A stretch of DNA of 64,000 nt. Source: Anaerolinea thermophila (GTDB lineage: Bacteria; Chloroflexota; Anaerolineae; Anaerolineales; Anaerolineaceae). The position numbers and the translations under genes are program-made. Below are positions 5,399-40,520 of this stretch, one piece after another. The stretch spans positions 186,001 to 250,000 of the forward strand of contig NZ_DYHZ01000003.1 in NCBI RefSeq assembly GCF_020723905.1, written 5' to 3'. The notes beneath the pieces were generated by a model. The model was not told where the DNA came from. It searched no databases and saw nothing but the letters and a program-made list of their open reading frames with translations. Within the stretch, counting starts at the first letter, position 1; each line of letters begins with the position of its first letter.

Positions 5399-5704
5399 AT
5401 GATGAAACATTTTCTGGTTGAAATTACGTATACTGTACCGTTTGAAACCCTCCAACCGGTTGTTTCAGAGCATCGCGCTTTTCTGCAAACCGGATACGAT
5501 AAGGGCTGGTTGTTGCTCTCTGGCCCAATGAATCCCAAAACAGGGGGGCTGGTGGTAGCGCGCGCTCCCTCGAAGGAAGATCTTCAGGGCTTTTTTGCCG
5601 GAGATCCTTATGCGCTGCGTGGTTACGCCGAATATCGCTTTGTAGAGTTCGACCCGGTTAAGTATCAGCCGTTTCTGGCGGACTGGATTCACGGGGATAT
5701 TTGA
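5399..5704 (+). CDS. YciI-like protein
   Basis: A small protein of about 101 residues with the YciI/YCII ferredoxin-like fold: MKHFLVEITYTVP at the start, an HRAFLQTGYDKGWLLLSGP strand-helix-strand core, and a KEDLQGFFAGDPY helix near the end. Members are small cytoplasmic proteins, some with weak hydrolase or isomerase activity; the actual role is unknown. Two ATGs in tandem (5399, 5402) follow AAAAGGA at 5386-5392. The longer reading frame upstream lies inside the lipoprotein gene and is not the start. Its last 16 bases overlap the 3' end of the converging lysK gene. Confidence 0.8.
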   Translation: MMKHFLVEITYTVPFETLQPVVSEHRAFLQTGYDKGWLLLSGPMNPKTGGLVVARAPSKEDLQGFFAGDPYALRGYAEYRFVEFDPVKYQPFLADWIHGDI

Positions 5705-6735
5705 GTCAGAATATCGAGTACCTTGGTTAACACTTGGATACTTTGGCGGTACTCCGTCAGAGAAATATGTTCGCCAGGTGTATGATCCAGACTGGAGTCG
5801 CCGGGTCCGTATGCTACACATGGACATCTCCAGACCGGTGCCACCAGATTGAGGTCTGCCGTTCCGGTTTTCAATGAAAAGGCGGGAGTACCTTCCTCTG
5901 CGCGAATAGCCTGTAAAAAGGCTCGCACCAGAGCAGAGTTTTTCTCTCCCCGGTAGGCAGGTATGCTGTCTGAAAAGTCAATCGTTCCCTCCCCTCTGAG
6001 CCATTCAATTTCCTGTTTCAGGTTTTCGGGGGAAATGGCGGGGGGAAGACGTACGTTTATTTCCAGTTCGGCTGTCTCAGCAAATCCGTCCCGGGTTGAA
6101 TGCATGGCTTGAAGACTGGGCGTCACCTGATCAAACACTCGTGAAGCGGATTCATTCCATTCATTTGTTTTTCTTACAAGAGAATTCCAGAACTGTACGG
6201 CAGATTCACAGGCTGTTTGCTTCCCGGAAGCCGTGTGGTACATGGGTTTTTCAATGCGGTACCGAATCCACGCGCTCCCTTTATAACCCAGCGTAATATG
6301 ATCCCACCCGCTGGGCTCACCAATGATGGCAAAACGGGGATGATACTCATTCAATACCCCTTTGGCACCGCGAGAGTCGCTTTCTTCTGCCAGTGCTCCC
6401 ACGACGATGATTCTCCATCCCGGGCGCGCCCCGACTCGAGAGGCGGCTGTGGTGAAACACGCCAGAGGACCTTTCGCATCAACTGCTCCTCTTCCGTAAA
6501 GTAAATCCCCTTCAATATGAACCGGAATTTCTCCAGGAACAGTGTCAATATGACCTAAGAGTACAATTTCGTTTGGGCCATCACCAAGAATGCCGACAGC
6601 ATTACCGGTTGCGTCCACAAACGATTGAAAACCGGCCTCATCCATTTTCTGAACAAGGTATGTCACTGCCTGGTTTTCCTGCCCGGTGGGGCTGTAATGT
6701 CTCAGTAATCCTACCAGTAAATCCGTTTCGTCCAT
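5689..6735 (-). CDS. lysK: LysW-ornithine/lysine carboxypeptidase LysK (M20 family)
   Basis: The last step of the carrier route: hydrolysis that frees ornithine (or lysine) from the C-terminal Glu of LysW. The protein is about 348 residues, a dinuclear-metal M20 hydrolase with LLGHIDTVPG (metal His and the Asp two residues on), GAVDAKGPLA (bridging Asp) and ALAEESDSRG (catalytic Glu pair). The longer frame upstream runs into lysJ; the ATG at 6735 lies one base beyond the lysJ stop, so the two are translationally linked. It is the last gene of the arg operon and converges on the YciI-like gene with a 16-base overlap. Confidence 0.88.
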   Translation of the reverse strand: MDETDLLVGLLRHYSPTGQENQAVTYLVQKMDEAGFQSFVDATGNAVGILGDGPNEIVLLGHIDTVPGEIPVHIEGDLLYGRGAVDAKGPLACFTTAASRVGARPGWRIIVVGALAEESDSRGAKGVLNEYHPRFAIIGEPSGWDHITLGYKGSAWIRYRIEKPMYHTASGKQTACESAVQFWNSLVRKTNEWNESASRVFDQVTPSLQAMHSTRDGFAETAELEINVRLPPAISPENLKQEIEWLRGEGTIDFSDSIPAYRGEKNSALVRAFLQAIRAEEGTPAFSLKTGTADLNLVAPVWRCPCVAYGPGDSSLDHTPGEHISLTEYRQSIQVLTKVLDILTQISP

Positions 6736-6736
6736 G

Positions 6737-7894
6737 TTAATCCTTTTGAAGCACGTGTTTAACCTTTTCGACCACGATTTCGAGGTCATGCTGGTCAATC
6801 ACAAGGGGCGGGAGAAAGCGCATTACGGTGAGCCCAGCAGGTAAAGCCAGCACGCCTTCTTCCAGAAGCGCTTGCAGGTAGGGCGTCACTTTTTGTTTGA
6901 GTTCGATTCCCACCATTAACCCCAGTCCTCTTACTTCCCGAATGAGGGGCGATTCAATCTGCTGTAAGGCGTGGAGAAATTTATCTCCAAGTTCCTGTGC
7001 TTTTTGCGGCAGATGGTTTGCCAGCAGGTAATCTATGGAAGCAAACGCGGCAGCACAGGCAAGTGGATTTCCTCCAAAGGTTGAGCCGTGCACCTGTGGA
7101 GGAAGTTCCTGTATCGCATCTCCGATTAAAACGGCTCCCATGGGAATACCTCCAGCAATTGACTTGGCAAGGCAGACCAGATCCGGGTGGATGGGATGAT
7201 GTTGAAAAGCAAACATTTTTCCGGTTCTTCCAAAGCCCGTTTGCACTTCATCTACGATGAATAAAGCGCCGTGTTCCCGGCAAAGCTGTTCTGCTTTCAT
7301 CAAAAATTCCGCGCTGGCGGGGATGACCCCGCCCTCGCCCTGCACAATTTCGACAATAAAAGCGGCTGTTTCCTCATGAATAGCATCATCCAGTGCCTCG
7401 GGACGGTTAAATGGGATGTGCCGAAATCCTGGCACCAGTGGTTCAAAGGGTTCGCGATATTTCTTCTCCCATGTTGCCGAAAGCGCTCCCATAGTCCGTC
7501 CGTGAAATCCCCGCATACAGGCAACAACTTGAGATCTTCCCGTGGTAATGCGGGCAAATTTCAGAGCCGCTTCAACGGATTCTGTCCCTGAATTGCAGAG
7601 AAACACCCGCGGAAAACCAGATATTTCGCATAGACGTTGTTCCAGCAAAGCCCGTCGGTCGTTATAAAACATTTCTGGGCAGGAAATCAGGGTTTGGGCT
7701 TGCGCGGCGATTGCCGCCGCAACGGCAGGATTGGCGTGTCCGATGTTGGCTGCGCCCTGTCCACCAACACAGTCAATGTATTCTTTGCCATTGGCATCCC
7801 AGAGGTGAGCGCCTTTTCCGCGCACAATGGCGACAGGACGCTTGGTGTACAAGCCAGATGTATGCTGGTTTTCCAGATCAATGATATTCATCAT
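6737..7894 (-). CDS. lysJ: LysW-glutamate/aminoadipate semialdehyde aminotransferase LysJ
   Basis: A class III PLP aminotransferase that converts the LysW-bound semialdehyde to LysW-ornithine (or LysW-lysine), with glutamate as amino donor. It has 385 residues, matching ArgD/LysJ. Visible are CNSGTESVEAALK (phosphate-binding loop), FIVDEVQTGFGRTG (cofactor Asp) and CLAKSIAGGIPMG, whose Lys forms the Schiff base. Two ATGs at 7894 and 7891 overlap the lysZ stop codon, so translation is coupled. The sequence alone cannot separate this enzyme from acetylornithine aminotransferase; the neighbouring lysW, argX, lysY and lysZ make the carrier-bound substrate much more likely. Confidence 0.88.
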   Translation of the reverse strand: MMNIIDLENQHTSGLYTKRPVAIVRGKGAHLWDANGKEYIDCVGGQGAANIGHANPAVAAAIAAQAQTLISCPEMFYNDRRALLEQRLCEISGFPRVFLCNSGTESVEAALKFARITTGRSQVVACMRGFHGRTMGALSATWEKKYREPFEPLVPGFRHIPFNRPEALDDAIHEETAAFIVEIVQGEGGVIPASAEFLMKAEQLCREHGALFIVDEVQTGFGRTGKMFAFQHHPIHPDLVCLAKSIAGGIPMGAVLIGDAIQELPPQVHGSTFGGNPLACAAAFASIDYLLANHLPQKAQELGDKFLHALQQIESPLIREVRGLGLMVGIELKQKVTPYLQALLEEGVLALPAGLTVMRFLPPLVIDQHDLEIVVEKVKHVLQKD

Positions 7895-8694
7895 AGGATG
7901 ACCGTTCCCTTTCCAGCAAGCGCATCCAGTAAAGGGTGCTCCGTGCGCCCATCAGCGAAGATGACTTGAGGTACCCCCAGTTGGATTGCCTCACTGGCGC
8001 CCAGAACTTTTTTCTTCATTCTGCCCTCGGCAAATGACAGGGCTTGTTCCAGTTCTGTGTAATGAAGCCTTGGAATGACAGTGCTTTCGTCCGGAAAGTG
8101 TCTCATCAATCCCGGTACGTTTGTCAGGATGATGAGTTGTTCGGCATGCATTGCACCTGCTACCATTGCCGCAGCACGGTCAGCATCTACATTAACTGCT
8201 TCGCCTTGCTGAGAAAGCGCCAGTGGAGCAATTACGGGGGTGAGACCGTTTTCGAGCAAAACACGCAGCAGGTCTGCGTTCACTGCCTCGATTTTTCCTG
8301 TGTAGTCATCTCGCAGAATCATTTTGTGCCCGTTCTCCACAATGCGGATGGCTTCTTTTCGATGCGCCAGCATCAGGCGTCCATCAATCCCTGAAAGTCC
8401 AAAGGCGTTAATACCCCGCTTTTGCATCCGTTCAACAATAAGGGTGTTGATTTTTCCCGCAGTAACCATGGCAAAGATTTCCAGTGTGGCGCGGTTGGTG
8501 TAGCGACTGGTAAAGCCGTTTTCGCTGGTTACAAAACGGGGAGGGTGGCCAAGTTGGGTTGAAATTTCGTTCACCTCGGTGGATCCACCGTGAACTAAGA
8601 TTAACTGTATCCCCTGTTGAATGAGCGTAACAGCATCCGCACAGATGGTATCCAGATTCACACCTTGAGAACCGCCAATTTTGACTACAATCAT
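7891..8694 (-). CDS. lysZ: LysW-glutamate/aminoadipate kinase LysZ
   Basis: An amino-acid kinase family enzyme, 267 residues, that phosphorylates the free side-chain carboxylate of the glutamate or aminoadipate attached to LysW. MIVVKIGGSQG at the N-terminus is the phosphate-binding loop, LILVHGGSTEVN binds the substrate, and LTNVPGLM and GRMKKKVLGA lie in the nucleotide half. It resembles acetylglutamate kinase (ArgB), but its context is the LysW operon. The ATG at 8694 is preceded by GAGGTG and lies 20 bases beyond the lysY stop. It overlaps lysJ by four bases at its own 3' end. Confidence 0.88.
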   Translation of the reverse strand: MIVVKIGGSQGVNLDTICADAVTLIQQGIQLILVHGGSTEVNEISTQLGHPPRFVTSENGFTSRYTNRATLEIFAMVTAGKINTLIVERMQKRGINAFGLSGIDGRLMLAHRKEAIRIVENGHKMILRDDYTGKIEAVNADLLRVLLENGLTPVIAPLALSQQGEAVNVDADRAAAMVAGAMHAEQLIILTNVPGLMRHFPDESTVIPRLHYTELEQALSFAEGRMKKKVLGASEAIQLGVPQVIFADGRTEHPLLDALAGKGTVIL

Positions 8695-8714: not shown

Positions 8715-9755
8715 CTAAATGGGGTGTAACCCGGGAAATTCCAGACCAGTGGTTTCCTCAAAACCGCACATAATATTCATTGCCTGAACGGCTGACCCTG
8801 CAGCGCCTTTCATCAGGTTGTCAATGGCGGCAAGTGCAATTACCCGACGGCTTTTTGGGTCGAAGTCGAAGCCTACATCCACGTAATTTGAACCTGCCAG
8901 GATTTTTGGATCTGGAACGCGATAGACCCCCCGGCGATCTTTGACCAGTCTCACAAAAGGTTCGTTCTCGCTCCACTGACGGTAGATTTTCCACAAATCT
9001 TTTTCCGTGATTTCGGGTAGTGCAAAGGCATGTGCCGCCGCCAGCGCTCCCCGTACCAGATCCACAGATGTCATGGTTAAGTGCACGGATGTCAATCCCA
9101 GTTCCTGCATGACTTCAGCCGTATGGCGATGTCCATAGGCAGAAAACGTGCGTACCACGCCGCTGCGTTCCGGGTGATGCGATCCCGCGTTTGGGGTGGC
9201 TCCACCTTCCGACGAACCTACTTTGATATCTACAATGACAGGCAGACTTAAGTCCAATACCCCGGCTTTCACCAGCGGATAAAGAGCCAGGTTAGCGGCT
9301 GTTGCATTACATCCAACTCCGCTGATGTATGAAGCCCGGCTCATCTCTTGCCGGTGCAATTCAGGAAGCCCATAGACAAAACGCCCCAGCCATTCCGGGG
9401 CTTGATGAGGTTCGTCGTAATATTGGGCGTACAACTGATCATCCCGCAGACGGAAATCTGCCGAGAGATCAATGATCTTGGGCGCAATTTGCGCGTATTG
9501 ATTGATTTTTTTCTGGCTCTCACCGTGCGGCATAGCCAGAAAGAGCACATCGCATGGTGAAACCTGATTGGGATCGGAAAATTTCAACGTGGTGCGCTTC
9601 CGCAGGTTGGGATGTTGTTGGTACACATATTCTCCCAGATGACTGCTGGAAGTCACCTGCTGTACTTTTACTTCAGGGTGGTCGAGTAAAAGCCTTAAAA
9701 GTTCGCCTCCCACGTAGCCGGAGGCGCCAACGATGGAGACGGTCAAAGGACTCAT
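8715..9755 (-). CDS. lysY: LysW-glutamate/aminoadipate phosphate reductase LysY (ArgC-like)
   Basis: An NADPH-dependent reductase that turns the LysW-bound acyl phosphate into the semialdehyde. [17 protein letters not shown] is the Rossmann dinucleotide motif, [17 protein letters not shown] carries the active-site Cys, and [18 protein letters not shown] is the conserved ArgC/LysY substrate loop. The frame opens at 9773, but the ATG at 9755 forms an ATGA overlap with the argX stop and gives the usual short N-terminus before the Rossmann fold (346 residues). ArgC acting on N-acetylglutamyl phosphate would look similar; the lysW context decides. Confidence 0.88.
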
Positions 9756-10702
9756 GGTGTCAAATGGCTCCATTCTGCGAGAGAGTGAGATAACGGGTTC
9801 CAGATTGTGGATAAATTTTGAGGGGGCTGGATAAAAGGAACTGGCAGGCGGATTTCCTTCCGGGCAACCGCCAGGGTGTAATCGGCGATAATGCCGGCAA
9901 TATCTACGCCAGTGGTTGGGGCGAGAGTGTGAAATTCCATGGTGTGATTGATCTCATTCACCAGGTAACCCCGCTGTGGGTCTTCCAGCACATCCACAGC
10001 CAGGACGCCACCACCCACAGCGTGCGCCGCTTTTACACACAGGTCGTTCAATTCAGGGGTGACGGGACAATTTTCTCCCTGTCCGTTGCGGGCAGTGTTG
10101 GTAATCCAGTGAGAGGAATTGCGGTAAATCGCGCAGATGGTTTGATCTCCCACCACAAAGGCGCGTATATCCCGTCCGGGTTTTTGGATGTATTCCTGAA
10201 TGTAATAAATGGAGTGCTGATAAGAGCCCAGCGTCTCCTTGTGTTCCAAAATGGCTTCTGCTGCGTCACGATCGTTAATCTTTGCCAGCAGGCGTCCCCA
10301 TGACCCAACCACAGGCTTTAATACGACGGGATACCCCAGTTCTTCAATGGCTTGCAAAGCCGCTTCAGGTGTAAAAGCCACCTTGATGCGTGGTTGTGGT
10401 ACACCGGCTCGTGCAAGAGCAGAAGAGGTGGCGAGTTTATCCCCACACGTAGCGGCGACATGTGCCATGTTTACTGTGGGTATTCCCCATGAATTAAGGA
10501 TTTGGGTGGCATATAATCCACGGGCGAACGAAATACTGCGTTCCAGAATCACATCAAAGGAAACCCACGCATCGGGGTGGCTAATGTCAAACACCGATTC
10601 GCGGTCGTCAATGCGCTCATAGGCAACCCCCCGCTTTTCAAAGGCTTCCAGAAGCCACTTTTCTTCCACCCGTACCCGGGAAAGAATGATCCCAATCTTC
10701 AT
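9752..10702 (-). CDS. argX: LysW-glutamate ligase ArgX/LysX (ATP-grasp)
   Basis: An ATP-grasp ligase that joins the alpha-amino group of glutamate (ArgX) or aminoadipate (LysX) to the C-terminal Glu of LysW, the first step of the carrier route. It starts [17 protein letters not shown], as in the family, with nucleotide-binding [13 protein letters not shown] and metal/ATP residues in [13 protein letters not shown]. The ATG at 10702 is chosen over the frame opening at 10729 because GGAGGT lies at 10709-10714. It is 32 bases beyond lysW and overlaps lysY by four bases. The operon also holds argG and argH and no homoaconitate-pathway genes, so glutamate is the likelier substrate, but a bifunctional enzyme is possible. 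Confidence 0.88.
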
Positions 10703-10734
10703 TCGCACACCTCCAATGCAAATACACAATATCG

Positions 10735-10902
10735 TTATTCACCCCAGTCTTCTTCTTCCATGGGGGCAAGTTCTACCTGTGGGGGATCGATGCTTAAAAC
10801 TTCAAGATCCACCCCGCAATCCGGACACACAAGAATTTCGCCGATCATGACATCTTCCAGGCTGATGGGGGCATCACATTCAGGGCAATAAGCAGTAGTC
10901 AT
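10735..10902 (-). CDS. lysW: LysW amino-group carrier protein
   Basis: A 55-residue acidic carrier that holds the pathway intermediate on its C-terminal Glu. The sequence ends in EDWGE, the hallmark of LysW, and has a small zinc ribbon made of CPEC (Cys6, Cys9) and CPDC (Cys26, Cys29). A strong AAGGAGGT lies at 10907-10914, five bases before the ATG at 10902. The stop TAA is at 10735-10737. It sits between argH and argX, 43 and 32 bases from each. The gene is short and easily missed, but the terminal motif and context make the call firm. Confidence 0.95.
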
Positions 10903-10945: not shown

Positions 10946-12373
10946 TTACGAACCATCTCCACCACGAGGGGTCTCAGGTGGAACTGCACTGCGAATCCGG
11001 TGTTGTTCCAGAAACTGGCGGGCTTGTTGTAATTGAATTTTCACCGCTGCCGGACTGGTTCCTCCAGGAACATTCCGGTGGGCTATGGACGCTTCAAAAT
11101 CAAACACCCCTTGAACATCTTTTTCAAAGAGCGGGCTGACTTTTTGGAATTCCTTAAGAGGGAGTTCATTCAGTGGCAGATTCAGTTCATGAGCCCGCCG
11201 AACGATTTGCCCAACCATGGCGTGAGCCTGCCGGAAGGGTACCCCTTTCCGAACCAGATAATCCGCCAGGTCGGTTGCCAGAATGGCAGGATCTAAAGCG
11301 GTGCGCATTTTTTCCGGATGGATTTCCAGTGTGCGAAGAACACCGGCAACAACAGGTAGCATTAAGCACAATGTATCGCTGGTTTCGAAGACAGGGATTT
11401 TATCTTCCTGCAAGTCTTTGTCGTAAGCAGAGGGTAACCCTTTCAACACAGACAACAATCCGGTCAATCTCCCAATCATTGTTCCGGCTTTCCCCCGGGT
11501 GAGTTCCAGCGTATCGGGGTTTTTCTTTTGCGGCATCAGGCTGGAGCCGGTGGAGTAGGCGTCGGAAAGTTCAATGAAGTCAAACTCTGCCGAAGTGTAG
11601 AGAATCAGCATCTCTGCAAGGCGGGAAAGATGCAGGGCTATCATTGTGGATACAAAGAGAAACTCCGCCGCTGAATCTCGATTGGATACAGCATCAATGC
11701 TGTTAGGGGTGATGGCTTTTAAACCCAGTTGATTGGCAAGGAACTTGCGGTCAATCGGGTAAGGAGTGCCGGCTAGAGCGCCAGAACCCAGGGGAAGCAC
11801 TGCCGCGCGTTCACGCAGTTGTCCCAGCCGTTGGCGGTCTCTGGCAAGAGGCCAGAAATGGGACAGCCACCAGTGGCTGAGTAAAATGGGTTGAGATTGT
11901 TGAAAATGGGTGTATCCCGGTAGAAGAATTCCGAAATCGATCTCAGCGCGGTCCACCAGGGCGCTTTGCACCAGTTTGACAAAAGCGTCGATACGGTCAA
12001 TGGCATCCACCAGCCAGAGGGTGAAATCCGTAGCAATCTGATCATTACGACTGCGCCCGGTGTGCAGTTTTCCTCCCACTGGACCGGTGAGTTCGATCAA
12101 ACGACGTTCAATTGCCGTATGTACGTCTTCATCAGTAGGTTCGTGTTTAAACCTGCCGCTCCGTACTTCTGCCAGGATATCGGTCAATCCTTTGACGATT
12201 TGTTGTTGTTCATCCAGATTGATCACTCCGGCTTTCATCAGGGCTTTTGCCCAGGCAATTGAACCGCGAATGTCCACCTCGGCTAAACGCCAGTCAAAGG
12301 AAATGGATGCATTGTATTCCCATGCAATAGGATCTAACCCGCTGGAAAACCGTCCGCCCCAAAGTTTACTCAT
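10946..12373 (-). CDS. argH: Argininosuccinate lyase
   Basis: Splits argininosuccinate into arginine and fumarate, the last step of arginine synthesis. The 475 residues start MSKLWGGRFSSGLDPIAWEYNASI, as usual for ArgH. The superfamily signature GSSLMPQKKNPD, which carries the mobile-loop catalytic Ser, lies near residue 275, with TGRSRNDQIATD near 115 in the substrate site. The ATG at 12373, preceded by AGGAGA, is preferred to the frame opening at 12391. It lies 46 bases beyond argG and 43 bases before lysW in the same operon. Confidence 0.95.
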   Translation of the reverse strand: MSKLWGGRFSSGLDPIAWEYNASISFDWRLAEVDIRGSIAWAKALMKAGVINLDEQQQIVKGLTDILAEVRSGRFKHEPTDEDVHTAIERRLIELTGPVGGKLHTGRSRNDQIATDFTLWLVDAIDRIDAFVKLVQSALVDRAEIDFGILLPGYTHFQQSQPILLSHWWLSHFWPLARDRQRLGQLRERAAVLPLGSGALAGTPYPIDRKFLANQLGLKAITPNSIDAVSNRDSAAEFLFVSTMIALHLSRLAEMLILYTSAEFDFIELSDAYSTGSSLMPQKKNPDTLELTRGKAGTMIGRLTGLLSVLKGLPSAYDKDLQEDKIPVFETSDTLCLMLPVVAGVLRTLEIHPEKMRTALDPAILATDLADYLVRKGVPFRQAHAMVGQIVRRAHELNLPLNELPLKEFQKVSPLFEKDVQGVFDFEASIAHRNVPGGTSPAAVKIQLQQARQFLEQHRIRSAVPPETPRGGDGS

Positions 12374-12419
12374 ATTCTCTTCTCCTTGCATTCAGGGATT
12401 TGATGTCCGAATTGTACAC

Positions 12420-13694
12420 TTAATCCCGCTTGAATGAGGAATAATCCGGAGCCTCTGAGGCAATTTGCACAGCGGCGGCAATATCCCGCATGGCAGCAAC
12501 CTTGAGCGGTAATCCAAACAGCGTGATGAATCCTTCCGCATCGCTCTGGTCGTAGACATTGTCTTTCCCGAAGGTAGCAAAGTCTTCGCGGTAGAGGCTG
12601 TAAACCGATTTTTTCCCTGCGGTGATGATGTTCCCTTTGTAAAGTTTGAGCCGTACTGTACCGGTGACATGCTTCTGGGTGACTTCAAAAAAGGCATCCA
12701 GCGCCTCACGAAGTGGTGTGAACCACTGCCCGAAATACACCAGTTCGGCATAGCGTTGAGCAAGCACATCTTTATAATGAAGCGTATCCCGATCAAGAGT
12801 GATTTGTTCCAGTTCCTTGTGAGCGCGCATGAGAATGGTACCGCCGGGAGTTTCATATACTCCACGAGATTTCATTCCCACAAGGCGGTTTTCCACCATG
12901 TCTACCCGTCCAATGCCGTGTTTACCGCCGATTTCATTGAGGGACTTGATGAGCGTGGCAGGGGATAAGGCTTTGCCGTTTAGTTTAACGGGTGTGCCTT
13001 CTTCAAAAGTAATTTCTATGTATTCGGGTGTATCTGGAGCATCTTCGGGGGAGACGGTCATTTGATACATACTTTCTTCTGGCTCTGCCCATGGATCTTC
13101 CAGTAAACCACCTTCGTGTGAAAGATGCCAGAGGTTACGGTCGCGGCTGTAAATGGATTTCAGGGTAGAACTTACCGGTACCTGATGGGCGGCGGCGTAT
13201 TCCAGAGCATCTTCCCGCGAGCGGATGTTCCATTCCCGCCACGGGGCAATCACTTTGAGCCGGGGATCAAGAGCCATTACAGTCAGTTCAAAACGAACCT
13301 GATCGTTCCCTTTGCCGGTACAACCATGTGCCACTGCATCTGCGTTTTCGAGGTGAGCAATTTCCACCATGTGTTTGGCGATGAGTGGGCGGGCAATCGA
13401 AGTCCCCAGCAGGTAATGACGTTCATAGATTGCTCCGGATTTGAGCAGTCTGAAGAGGTACTGACTGGCAAATTCCTCCGTCAGGTCTTCAATGTAAATT
13501 TTGGTTGCTCCTGTGGCTTTGGCTTTTTCCGGCAAGCCAGACAGTTCTTCCCCCTGTCCAATATCTGCGGTAAAACAAATTACCTCACAGCCATAGTTCT
13601 CTTTGAGCCATGGCACGATGATGGAGGTGTCCAGCCCGCCAGAATAGGCAAGAACAACTTTCTTGATAGGCGTAGAATGGGTTTGCTTGGGCAT
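12420..13694 (-). CDS. argG: Argininosuccinate synthase
   Basis: Joins citrulline and aspartate with ATP to form argininosuccinate. The protein is 424 residues against a usual 400. The N-type pyrophosphatase loop AYSGGLDTS lies at residues 16-24, and [14 protein letters not shown] and [14 protein letters not shown] are typical ArgG blocks. The ATG at 13694 follows GGAGTGAG. It is the first enzyme gene of the arg operon. Upstream lie a strong promoter, an arginine-rich leader ORF and an intrinsic terminator, so expression is probably set by attenuation. Confidence 0.95.
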
Positions 13695-13721
13695 ATCTCA
13701 CTCCTTTAGTTTCTCAAAATC

Positions 13722-13747
13722 AAAAAGCCCTCCAGGTACTGGAGGGC
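13722..13747 (-). terminator. Intrinsic terminator in the argG leader (attenuator)
   Basis: Read on the minus strand, a perfect 9-bp stem (GCCCTCCAG / CTGGAGGGC, 13727-13747) with a 3-base loop is followed by five Us and then GAUUUU. It lies 28 bases before the argG start and about 50 bases beyond the stop of the leader ORF, where a transcription attenuator would be placed. A terminator between a strong promoter and its own first gene implies conditional read-through. Confidence 0.8.
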
Positions 13748-13798
13748 GTGGTTACGACTGTTAGGGATTCTTTATAGGTTAGAAGTCAGGCAATCCAC

Positions 13799-13885
13799 TC
13801 AACAGGTGCGACCAGCCGACCTTCCCTGGAAATTCCGGGGAAGGAAGATCTTTCGTCGAGCCTTGAGTTCAAAAAGGAATGCCAT
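13799..13885 (-). CDS. Arginine-rich leader peptide of the arg operon (candidate)
   Basis: A 28-codon ORF in the argG leader: ATG at 13885, TGA at 13799-13801, with CAGGAG four bases before the ATG. Five of 28 residues are Arg, including a CGA-CGA pair at codons 10-11, then CGG, AGG and CGC at codons 17, 22 and 26. The ORF begins about 15 bases beyond the predicted transcription start and contains a stable hairpin (13820-13844) within codons 14-22. An intrinsic terminator follows. The arrangement matches amino-acid leader peptides that sense charged tRNA by ribosome stalling. The peptide itself probably has no other role. Confidence 0.6.
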   Translation of the reverse strand: MAFLFELKARRKIFLPRNFQGRSAGRTC

Positions 13886-13906
13886 TTTTCTCCTGAAGTT
13901 TGGCTG

Positions 13907-13934
13907 ATTATAGCACGATGACTCGGATTGTCAA
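13907..13934 (-). promoter_or_regulatory. Sigma-70-type promoter of the arg operon
   Basis: On the minus strand TTGACA (13929-13934) and TATAAT (13907-13912) both match the consensus fully, with a 16-base spacer. Transcription should start near 13900, giving a leader of about 205 bases before argG. It lies back to back with the promoter of the divergent sugar isomerase gene. Confidence 0.85.
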
Positions 13935-13953
13935 TAGAAAGTGGGGGCATTTT

Positions 13954-13983
13954 TTGAAAAATTTAGGGGTATTTGGATATACA
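13954..13983 (+). promoter_or_regulatory. Promoter of the sugar isomerase/fucosidase pair
   Basis: TTGAAA (13954-13959) and TATACA (13978-13983) with an 18-base spacer, 35 bases before the ATG at 14019. The leader contains GGGAGG just before the start. It is divergent from the arg promoter, leaving about 20 bases between the two -35 boxes. Confidence 0.5.
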
Positions 13984-14018
13984 ATCAAAAGGACTTCAAT
14001 CTTTTTCGGGAGGGTATC

Positions 14019-14771
14019 ATGTCCCCAATTCCTGTGGGTGTTCAATTGTATTCTGTGCGGGAGGATTGTGCGCGGGATTTACCGGGCACCTTGAAAGCCA
14101 TTGCTCAAATGGGGTACGATGGAGTGGAATTTGCTGGCTTCTATGGACATTCTGCCAGAGAACTCCGTCAGTGGCTGGATGAGAATGGCTTGAAGTGCTG
14201 TGGGGCGCACATTCCATTGAGTGACTTATCCGATGAAACATTCCATCAAACGGTCGAATTTCATCTGGAGTTGGGAAATCCCTATCTGGTAATCCCCTGG
14301 ATTTCGGAAGAATTCCGTGCCAGCCGAACAGCGTGGATAAAAACAGCCGAGTGGTTTTCCCACCTGGCAGAACGGTTGGAGCCCTATGGGCTTCGCCTGG
14401 GATACCACAATCATGACTTTGAATTTGACTGGATGGATGGCGAAGTGCAATTTGATATTTTCTTCAGCGCGGTAAGTCCCAAAGTGTTCATGCAGTTAGA
14501 TACAGGAAATGCCATGCACGGCAGCGCCGATCCTCTGGAGTACCTCCAGCGGTATAGCGATAAGGCGGTGACCATTCACCTCAAGGAATACTCTTCTAAA
14601 AATCCATCCGCTTTACCGGGGGAAGGAGAAGTACCATGGCAGGATGTTTTCGCCTTGTGTGAATGCTGTGAGGTCACCGAATGGTACATAGTTGAGCAGG
14701 AGCAATACTCCATGCCTCCACTGGAAACCATAGCCCGTTGTCGGGAAATTTTAAGGAAAATGGGGCGGTAA
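14019..14771 (+). CDS. Sugar phosphate isomerase/epimerase (xylose isomerase-like TIM barrel)
   Basis: A 250-residue TIM-barrel protein of the AP-endonuclease 2/xylose isomerase-like family, whose members isomerise or epimerise sugars with a divalent metal. Visible are GVQLYSVRED at the start, MGYDGVEFAGFYG, LGYHNHDFEF (metal His/Glu region), MQLDTGNAMHG and VTIHLKEY, each at the end of a barrel strand. The ATG at 14019 follows GGGAGG; the frame opening at 13941 overlaps the promoter and is rejected. The stop is three bases before the GH29 gene, so the two are co-transcribed. The substrate is unknown, though fucose or a related sugar fits the neighbour. Confidence 0.82.
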   Translation: MSPIPVGVQLYSVREDCARDLPGTLKAIAQMGYDGVEFAGFYGHSARELRQWLDENGLKCCGAHIPLSDLSDETFHQTVEFHLELGNPYLVIPWISEEFRASRTAWIKTAEWFSHLAERLEPYGLRLGYHNHDFEFDWMDGEVQFDIFFSAVSPKVFMQLDTGNAMHGSADPLEYLQRYSDKAVTIHLKEYSSKNPSALPGEGEVPWQDVFALCECCEVTEWYIVEQEQYSMPPLETIARCREILRKMGR

Positions 14772-25111: not shown

Positions 25112-25122
25112 AAAAAGAAAGG

Positions 25123-25196
25123 CGCTCCCGGCGGGACTCGAACCCACAACCTACTGATTCGAAGTCAGGCGCTCTGTCCACTTGAGCTACGGGAGC
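25123..25196 (-). tRNA. tRNA-Arg (anticodon TCG)
   Basis: A 74-base cloverleaf on the minus strand. The acceptor stem is GCTCCCG/CGGGAGC with discriminator G, the D arm contains AGCTCAAGTGGACAGAGC, the anticodon loop CTTCGAA gives TCG, and the T loop is TTCGAGT. It decodes CGA (and other CGN by wobble). CCA is not encoded. It probably shares a transcript with the lipoprotein gene directly behind it. Confidence 0.93.
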
Positions 25197-40136: not shown

Positions 40137-40446
40137 ACATTTTTCTCACTTGACCCCTGGGTCCATAGGTAAATGCCTATTTTAGCCCCACCAGATGTTT
40201 TTTTCCGACTAAGTTTTCCCACTGAGATCTGTCTAAAAAGAGAAAACAAGTCTTTTTGGATAGCCCCTTTTTTTATGGTTTTATTTTGTTGAAAGCCCTA
40301 AATAAGGATAAACGCCAGAGTGAGGGGGGCACCCTGACGTTTATCTATGGAATATTTTACTCACTTCTTCCAAAAAATCAAGGGTTAAAACTTACCTTAA
40401 CCTTACGAATAACCTTAAAAATTCCTAAGAGTTTTTTAAAAATGAG
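40137..40446. other. AT-rich intergenic stretch with a long hairpin and short direct repeats
   Basis: No gene is seen. It contains an inverted repeat GATAAACG...CGTTTATC (40307-40345) whose arms extend inward with CAG/CTG and GTG/CAC pairs. On the minus strand this lies about 100 bases downstream of tRNA-Arg and may end its transcript. Between the hairpin and the tRNA are four copies of ACCTTA-type hexamers. T-rich runs fill the rest. Confidence 0.5.
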
Positions 40447-40520
40447 TGCCCCAGGAGGGACTCGAACCCCCAACCAAGGCGTTAGGAGTGCCTTGCTCTA
40501 TCCTTTTGAGCTACTGGGGC
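40447..40520 (-). tRNA. tRNA-Arg (anticodon CCT)
   Basis: A 74-base cloverleaf on the minus strand: acceptor GCCCCAG/CTGGGGC with discriminator A, D arm AGCTCAAAAGGATAGAGC, anticodon loop CTCCTAA giving CCT, T loop TTCGAGT. It decodes AGG. CCA is not encoded. Confidence 0.92.

Follow-up and report, generated by a model that had tools for sequence, protein, structure and literature searches.

Leader-peptide attenuators are known for the trp, his, ilv, leu, thr and phe operons. In the window, by which we mean the whole 64,000-nucleotide stretch of Anaerolinea thermophila DNA analyzed here, a short arginine-rich ORF and an intrinsic terminator precede argG, and the question raised by this locus is whether arginine biosynthesis is governed there by the same kind of device. 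We favor the reading, at a probability of about 0.92, that the element is a ribosome-mediated transcription attenuator, which would sense charged tRNA-Arg and control argG-argH-lysW-lysX-argC-lysZ-lysJ-lysK. This assignment is drawn from sequence and its comparison alone; no experiment was carried out.

Anatomy of the argG leader and the downstream operon

All of the leader features are located on the minus strand, upstream of argG. A pattern scan identified the -35 hexamer TTGACA (13929..13934) and the -10 hexamer TATAAT (13907..13912), the latter preceded by a TG extension; the two are separated by a 16-nt spacer and match the consensus in 12 of 12 positions. From the inferred transcription start near 13900 to the ATG of argG at 13694, the leader measures ∼206 nt. 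An AGGAG motif resembling a Shine-Dalgarno sequence (13890..13894) is followed by an ORF of 28 codons (MAFLFELKARRKIFLPRNFQGRSAGRTC; 13799..13885), delimited from the sequence and by comparison with relatives, which includes five Arg codons. Two of these, CGA-CGA (Arg10-Arg11; 13853..13858), are the predicted sensing codons, on the basis of the Arg-Arg pairs of the relatives and the stall scans described below. The sequence and its fold define a first hairpin with the 5′ arm CCUUCCC (strand 1; 13838..13844) and the 3′ arm GGGAAGG (13820..13826). Strand 1 would lie within reach of a ribosome stalled at Arg11, on the assumption that the ribosome covers 13 nt counted from the A site. The intrinsic terminator (13722..13747), detected by scan and supported by stem covariation in 39 leaders, comprises a 9-bp stem (13747-13727), a UAC loop and a tract of five U residues, and it ends 27 nt before the ATG of argG. 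A short leader ORF between promoter and terminator was our criterion for an attenuator leader, and it is fulfilled. The original prediction had proposed this consensus promoter with a leader of ∼205 bases, the ORF with its Shine-Dalgarno sequence and five Arg codons, the internal hairpin at 13820-13844 and the 9-bp terminator with its U tract, all of which were recovered from the sequence.

The window leader taken singly is more stable than most of its shuffled versions (z of -2.6, with 1 of 200 shuffles equally stable). Within the 2 kb scanned, promoter-like sites (2 versus 2.2 expected) and terminator-like sites (3 versus 2.1 expected) occur in chance numbers, and the case therefore depends on comparison rather than on the window alone.

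The eight genes downstream, all on the minus strand, were identified by HMM matches: argG, encoding argininosuccinate synthase and the first controlled gene (12420..13694; NF001770, 648 bits), argH (10946..12391; TIGR00838), lysW, encoding a carrier protein with an EDWGE tail (10735..10902; TIGR01206, above cut-off), the lysX/argX ligase (9752..10729; TIGR02144), argC/lysY (8715..9773; TIGR01850), the lysZ/argB kinase (7891..8694; NF010659), the lysJ/argD aminotransferase (6737..7894; TIGR00707, above its cut-off) and the lysK hydrolase (5689..6798; NF003367). The criterion adopted for a LysW-dependent pathway, namely LysW with a C-terminal EDWGE together with LysX, LysZ, LysY/ArgC, LysJ and LysK, was satisfied. 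The operon is thus devoted to arginine synthesis via the LysW carrier, as had been predicted, although there are no data on the choice of these enzymes between glutamate and aminoadipate. That the eight genes form a single transcript is inferred.

A divergent gene at 13941-14771 shows a weak match to the myo-inosose-2 dehydratase IolE (70.7 bits; cut-off 290). Its listed GTG start is located 7 bases from the -35 hexamer of the arginine promoter, and an internal ATG may be the true start.

Conservation and amino-acid specificity of the leader

The argG gene was sought in 41 related genomes and was present in 29. Additional samples comprised the 80 best argG loci of a public genome set and a class-wide set of 298 genomes, 239 of which carried argG. 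Within the genus, represented by five genomes, the leader sequence has diverged considerably, while the ATG, the Arg-Arg pair and the terminator are retained (doublet contexts KARRK in the window, KLRRK twice, KARRP and RLRRK). A strict rule called for an ATG-initiated ORF of 12-45 codons whose Arg-Arg pair is followed, after 40-130 nt, by an intrinsic terminator, and it was satisfied by 24 of the 27 assessable argG upstream regions, the window's own included (two of the 29 could not be assessed). The check that had been suggested, whether ORF start, Arg codons and terminator persist in relatives while the remainder drifts, thus gave a positive answer. The strict-rule leader was missing from the other three of the 27 (L095, L099 and L106). 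L106 passed a looser ORF/terminator rule, and in the genome of L095 an Arg-Arg leader is found one gene further upstream (L309).

The specificity of the leader was evident from the comparison with hisG. A terminator was detected in 25 of the 27 argG upstream regions, and 24 of these carried an Arg-Arg ORF and one a His-His ORF. Of 30 hisG upstream regions of the order, 28 had a terminator; when the rule was applied unchanged to these, 25 had His-His and 4 had Arg-Arg. Other doublets before argG were less frequent in the 25 regions (Ser-Ser in 9, Leu-Leu in 4 and the remainder in no more than 3 each). The leader amino acid is therefore specific to the operon, Arg-Arg for argG and His-His for hisG, which supports the original proposal of an amino-acid attenuator dedicated to arginine.

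In the class-wide sample, in which some genomes of the order are present, 105 upstream regions could be assessed. A terminator lay near argG in 36, of which 26 contained an Arg-Arg ORF. The background under the loose rule is high, since an ATG-initiated Arg-Arg ORF also occurred in 31 of the 69 regions without a near terminator. ORF and terminator together were found in none of 13 loci from Bacillota, Deltaproteobacteria, Delongbacteria and unnamed bacteria. The search also accepted L070 (Bipolaricaulota) and L074 (Calditrichota, with TTG as the start codon); both have poor terminators, and we do not trust them.

For the analysis of the switch, 73 leaders with an ATG-initiated Arg-Arg ORF and a terminator were selected from the 104 distinct upstream regions of loci L001-L110. 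These leaders were chosen for having both features; doubtful members such as L070 were retained, and leaders with other start codons (e.g., L026 and L074) were excluded. In this selected set (one of the 73 dropped), the shuffle background for an Arg-Arg ORF was 9.4%. The first doublets are composed of CGT (98), CGA (36), CGC (11) and AGA (1) codons. Among the various groups of arginine leaders, the surrounding peptide changes (KARRK, RARRP, RRPRRK, IRRRRT) while the Arg residues remain constant.

Promoter spacing and probable near-leaderless transcripts

A promoter-like pair with a score of at least 9 was present in 67 of 72 leaders examined, and the five without one were left out of the spacing counts. 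The ATG was positioned exactly 10 nt past the -10 hexamer in 29 of the 67 and at 6-11 nt in 47, and only 6 of the 67 had a Shine-Dalgarno-like motif. The window leader is atypical in this respect, with 21 nt from the -10 hexamer to the ATG and the AGGAG motif. Sigma-70 transcripts usually start ∼7 nt after the -10 hexamer. If this general rule holds in this phylum as well, these transcripts would begin 0-4 nt before the ATG, and those of the 47 leaders are thus probably near-leaderless.

Proposed antiterminator pairing and computed effect of ribosome position

The proposed mechanism can be stated as follows. Transcription would begin near 13900, with ribosomes translating the leader ORF as they follow the polymerase. 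Under arginine shortage, a ribosome would stall at CGA-CGA (codons 10-11) and occlude the beginning of the first hairpin. Strand 2 (GGUCGGCUGGU; 13811..13821), thereby freed, could pair with strand 3 (ACCACGCCCUCC; 13741..13752), whose sequence shares bases with the terminator's 5′ arm, and read-through into argG would ensue. When arginine is ample, the ribosome would move over strand 2 towards the stop codon, so that the terminator would form and the operon would be off. In the absence of a ribosome the first hairpin would hold strand 2, with the same outcome. Translation, stalling, termination and the response to arginine are all inferred. Strands 2 and 3 were delimited from their computed duplex, which amounts to -15.5 kcal/mol in the window leader. 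This pairing replaces the possible switch originally envisaged, in which the CUUCC arm of the first hairpin would pair weakly with the GGAGGG arm of the terminator.

Across the leader group, the mean complementarity of strands 2 and 3 exceeds that of permuted partners. In an alignment of 39 leaders, picked by eye from the 73, the consensus of strand 2 is GAAGGUCGGG and that of strand 3 is GCCCUCCUUC. The mean value of the duplex in the 73 leaders was -20.9 for their own partners versus -17.1 ± 0.35 for permuted ones (lowest of 2000 permutations, -18.3). With an alternative anchoring, in which 26 of the 73 were placed on a later Arg doublet, the values were -19.2 versus -16.1 ± 0.36 (lowest, -17.2). 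Flank pairing was scored at five positions each in only the 28 rows that match a motif: of the 140 cells, 112 were paired, versus 91 ± 3.3 and a maximum of 104 in 5000 permutations. The paired changes in the flanks include AGUGG/CCACU, CCGAA/UUCGG and CCGUG/CACGG. In the automatic alignment of the 39 leaders, the terminator stem covaries strongly (two-sided change in 7 of 9 pairs). Covariation of the antiterminator is modest: four pairs changed on both sides versus 2.6, a number matched by 66 of 500 shuffles, whereas the covariation score was matched by 3 of 500. One tally on the alignment omitted 9 of the 39 rows, and in our opinion the weakness of the signal is due in part to misalignment of loops of differing length. 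The permutation and shuffle controls do not take relatedness into account.

The effect of ribosome position was computed under the premise that strand 4 had not yet been made, by determining, with the ribosome at every position in turn, how probable it is that upstream sequence is paired to the terminator's 5′ arm. In the 73 leaders, the antiterminator probability was 0.74 with the second Arg codon of the doublet in the A site, versus 0.24 for ribosome-free RNA (0.36 when partners before the Arg codons are also counted). The stalled value exceeded the free one in all 73, or in 72 when all upstream partners were counted. When the segment between doublet and terminator was shuffled, the corresponding values were 0.43 stalled and 0.26 free (0.39 with all upstream partners). 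The scan reached its peak, 0.74-0.76, at 0 to +9 nt and was lower on either side (0.34 at -36, 0.20 at +45); a ribosome at the stop codon gave 0.19 (26 of the 73 being anchored on the later doublet). An antiterminator that excludes the terminator and is favored by a stall at the regulatory codons, across the leader group, was the standard set for the switch, and in computation, though only there, it was met.

Taken alone, the window leader follows the pattern, but its computed switch is not a clean one; the model assumes equilibrium and leaves out co-transcriptional kinetics. When pairing partners were limited to those 3′ of the Arg codons, the probabilities were 0.54 stalled, 0.14 free and 0.04 at the stop codon. 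Counting all upstream partners, they were 0.63 free, 0.44-0.52 for codons 1-4, 0.35-0.37 for codons 6-10, 0.55-0.58 for codons 11-18 and 0.30 or less from codon 20 onward. Of the five Arg codons, only the CGA-CGA doublet and perhaps Arg17 are placed such that a stall would favor the antiterminator; Arg22 and Arg26 lie in or beside strand 2 and gave computed values of 0.23 and 0.30 versus 0.55. The tRNA-Arg genes to which the original prediction drew attention are present in the window (25121-25196, anticodon TCG; 40446-40520, anticodon CCT), but their presence gives no evidence about regulation.

The position dependence is also relevant to the idea that read-through is set by general translation, or by nascent-peptide arrest with free arginine, rather than by the charging of tRNA-Arg. 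Such sensing has a counterpart in the nascent SpeFL peptide, which senses ornithine, and one leader group does conserve the peptide context beyond the Arg residues (PRTRRPKPTS). Across groups, however, the context differs as listed above while Arg stays, and the antiterminator probability peaks for ribosomes at the doublet, such that we regard this explanation as very unlikely.

Searches for ArgR, T-boxes and known RNA elements

The C-terminal domain of ArgR (PF02863) was detected in none of the 41 related genomes and in 8 of 14 controls. The N-terminal domain (PF01316) was likewise above cut-off in none of the 41, with one weak match (genome G001), and in 8 of the 14 controls. Control by ArgR was rejected on this ground. 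A T-box, known riboswitch or Rfam leader was also rejected: no Rfam family matched the leader at its gathering score, the best non-significant match being Phe_leader (20.3 bits versus a gathering score of 55), and no T-box was found in the window at gathering score, nor in 13600-14000 even up to an E value of 10.

T-boxes do occur elsewhere in the same genome, where eight matches (L139-L146), three of them above cut-off, are all located on contigs other than that of argG. Several of their neighbors, read by eye from the first residues, resemble trpE, trpB and aminoacyl-tRNA synthetases. The genome appears to mix T-boxes and leader peptides according to the amino acid; trp and ile T-boxes are known in the Chloroflexi, to judge from the part of the source available (PMC2494555).

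These results bear on the possibility that the leader acts as an RNA switch that binds a protein or metabolite, such as an arginine riboswitch or a T-box, in which the ORF would be incidental and CGACGA would be kept only for its pairing with the GUCGG of strand 2. By our own reading of the sequences, several Anaerolinea leaders could form a CCGAC:GUCGG pairing, and strand 2 is conserved at the nucleotide level. Against this, Rfam matches were at chance level only, the T-boxes of the genome lie apart from argG, the Arg doublet is retained through differing codons, and the hisG leaders of the same order share the layout with His codons. A switch of this kind seems to us highly improbable. Mere coincidence, i.e., a chance ORF together with a terminator of the usual constitutive kind in front of argG, could appeal to the chance numbers of promoter and terminator patterns in the 2 kb and to the 31 of 69 class-wide background, but it is barely conceivable in view of the argG/hisG specificity, the conservation in 24 of 27 relatives, the strand complementarity and a shuffle background of just 9.4% in the selected leaders.

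Relation to known systems

The attenuator favored here would share the logic of the trp/his-type systems, with regulatory codons in a short ORF, hairpins that exclude one another and an intrinsic terminator before the first gene. It differs from them in its arginine signal, its LysW-pathway operon and its occurrence in the Chloroflexota (Anaerolineae), and in that the ORFs of many relatives lack a Shine-Dalgarno-like motif and start near the presumed start of the transcript. His-type leader attenuators have been described, and His leader peptides in Firmicutes were added by a 2022 study, as far as the available part of that source indicates (PMC9413887). Leaderless poly-cysteine attenuator ORFs in mycobacteria (Canestrari et al. 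2020, as cited in PMC9031893) resemble the argG leaders in being leaderless or near-leaderless with tandem regulatory codons; in contrast, they concern cysteine and Actinobacteria, and the argG leaders have an intrinsic terminator and an antiterminator candidate.

Sensing of arginine by leader codons is not without precedent. In the Salmonella orf34-speF leader, two consecutive Arg codons of an upstream ORF sense arginine, but the accessible portion of the report describes Rho, masking of the ribosome-binding site and RNase G acting on ornithine decarboxylase, and not arginine synthesis (PMC6386406). In Staphylococcus aureus rbfL, Arg codons of a leader peptide sense arginine limitation, whereas control there is translational, concerns a biofilm regulator and lowers expression when arginine is scarce, according to the sections at hand (PMC13009471). 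Arginine T-boxes and ArgR repression similarly provide arginine feedback on arginine genes; unlike these systems, no T-box was seen upstream of argG in the window, and the 41 genomes have no ArgR domain above cut-off.

Among the surveys, one of Actinobacteria did not see an element for arginine and refers to arginine T-boxes elsewhere, within the portion of its text available (PMC1262725). According to a 2010 survey, likewise available in part, leader peptides had been known from Proteobacteria and Actinobacteria alone, and the survey extended them to Firmicutes (PMC2965389). A 2013 survey on regulons controlled by RNA mentions "arginine" and "leader peptide" nowhere in its main text (PMC3766115). 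Open-access full texts yielded no leader-peptide attenuator for arginine biosynthesis in bacteria, nor any from Chloroflexota, most of the subscription literature being outside the scope of the search. As far as the literature could be searched, the mechanism is therefore known from trp/his attenuation, while its specificity and lineage are new.

Related leaders on other operons

A covariance model of the leader (R1), in which the window leader, a member of its alignment, scored 51.9 bits, also detected full-length copies elsewhere. It matched in 44 of 61 relatives and in 50 of 400 genomes of the phylum; these tallies overstate the arginine leader, because weak or partial hits (below ∼30 bits, or restricted to the 3′ end) were largely plain terminators or other leaders where they were read. 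In all, 48 places were fetched, partly by choice and one of them the window's own, and their downstream genes were read by eye unless an HMM is named.

In seven places the leader precedes lysX, with argG elsewhere in the genome; all four of those tested by HMM (L284, L305, L308 and L313) were above cut-off for LysX, and in four of the seven argC follows lysX. A homocitrate or isopropylmalate synthase is encoded further on in L305, and a role in lysine synthesis is therefore possible there. Five places (L285 and L287-L290) have carA downstream, confirmed by HMM for L288, and the carAB leaders of L285, L289 and L290 have scattered Arg codons and no doublet. As a general target carAB was rejected, since a clear leader with a terminator was present in none of the 13 best carA loci in an order-wide set of 81 genomes, and carAB leaders were confined to the five genomes picked out by R1.

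Nine places have a gene for a family-3 solute-binding protein downstream, and the best NCBIfam model for all nine proteins is the Lys/Arg/Orn binding-protein subfamily, below cut-off. One of them is a second copy in the genome of the window (contig C1, 9033-9148; 2034-2149 of L283), which encodes the peptide MMKLLLADLISPKRIPRSPSFREGAGSSCL before a solute-binding protein and a permease of basic amino acid type. The transporter leaders carry mixtures of basic codons, i.e., SPKRIPR (own genome), HKRH, KRFHVH, HKHPRNR, KAKHHH and PKRGAKHIR, and one genome with such a leader (G022) gave no argG match. In five of these leaders (L296, L310, L311, L322 and L324), the codons look like a list of transporter substrates. 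The remaining R1 places precede argG or ilv genes or are plain terminators.

Two further leaders were identified in the genome of the window. A His-rich leader (MMNIRFALHHHTSLHEPLGGGR) with a terminator precedes hisG (contig C4; 1170-1320 of L334), and its scan peaked at 0.82-0.83 for codons 10-14 versus 0.31 free. An Ile/Val/Leu-rich leader (MHSFFSLFILFLIAVLVIILENP...) with a terminator precedes ilvD (contig C10; 567-745 of L335) and has the antiterminator candidate GGGCGGU:ACCGCCC; its scan was flat at 0.58-0.60 for codons 4-23, with 0.00 at codon 24 and 0.30 free. Similar leaders were noted before ilvB or ilvD in four loci (L302, L307, L317 and L318) and in L316, for which the downstream gene is undetermined.

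On balance, and with moderate confidence, we incline to the view that in the Anaerolineales leader peptides, rather than ArgR, largely govern the handling of basic amino acids. Attenuators of a single related design, mostly on near-leaderless transcripts, would serve argG, lysW-lysX operons, carAB and family-3 transporters, the mixed Lys/Arg/His codons of the last matching their likely substrates, beside His leaders on hisG and Ile/Val/Leu leaders on ilvD. Elsewhere in the class, leaders of types II-IV would represent solutions for argG that are unrelated in sequence, suggesting repeated invention. If true, this would explain the possible control of arginine genes in a lineage without detected ArgR, one RNA regulon would join biosynthesis, carbamoyl phosphate and uptake, and leader codons would yield predictions of transporter substrates.

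The other leader types were seen in the upstream regions of additional loci. Type II arginine leaders, from other Anaerolineae, were observed in seven loci (L054, L060, L165, L204, L206, L217 and L224), where the ORF ends in PDxPSG or similar, and in L125, where it ends in PASG; they show a pairing of the CCAGACGG type, and their sequence is unrelated to that of the window type. In type III leaders (eight loci: L024, L131, L137, L156, L170, L187, L208 and L218), tandem Arg codons occur in ORFs that are mostly very short, the terminator is of the AACCACGAUG type, and the competing strands are unresolved. Type IV leaders (L199, L202 and L221) contain IRRRRT, with AGUCCGG beside the terminator arm CCCCGGACU or similar. 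Finally, in a family of four loci (L111, L112, L113 and L121), Arg-Ser-Lys-Arg takes the place of Arg-Arg in the argG leader.
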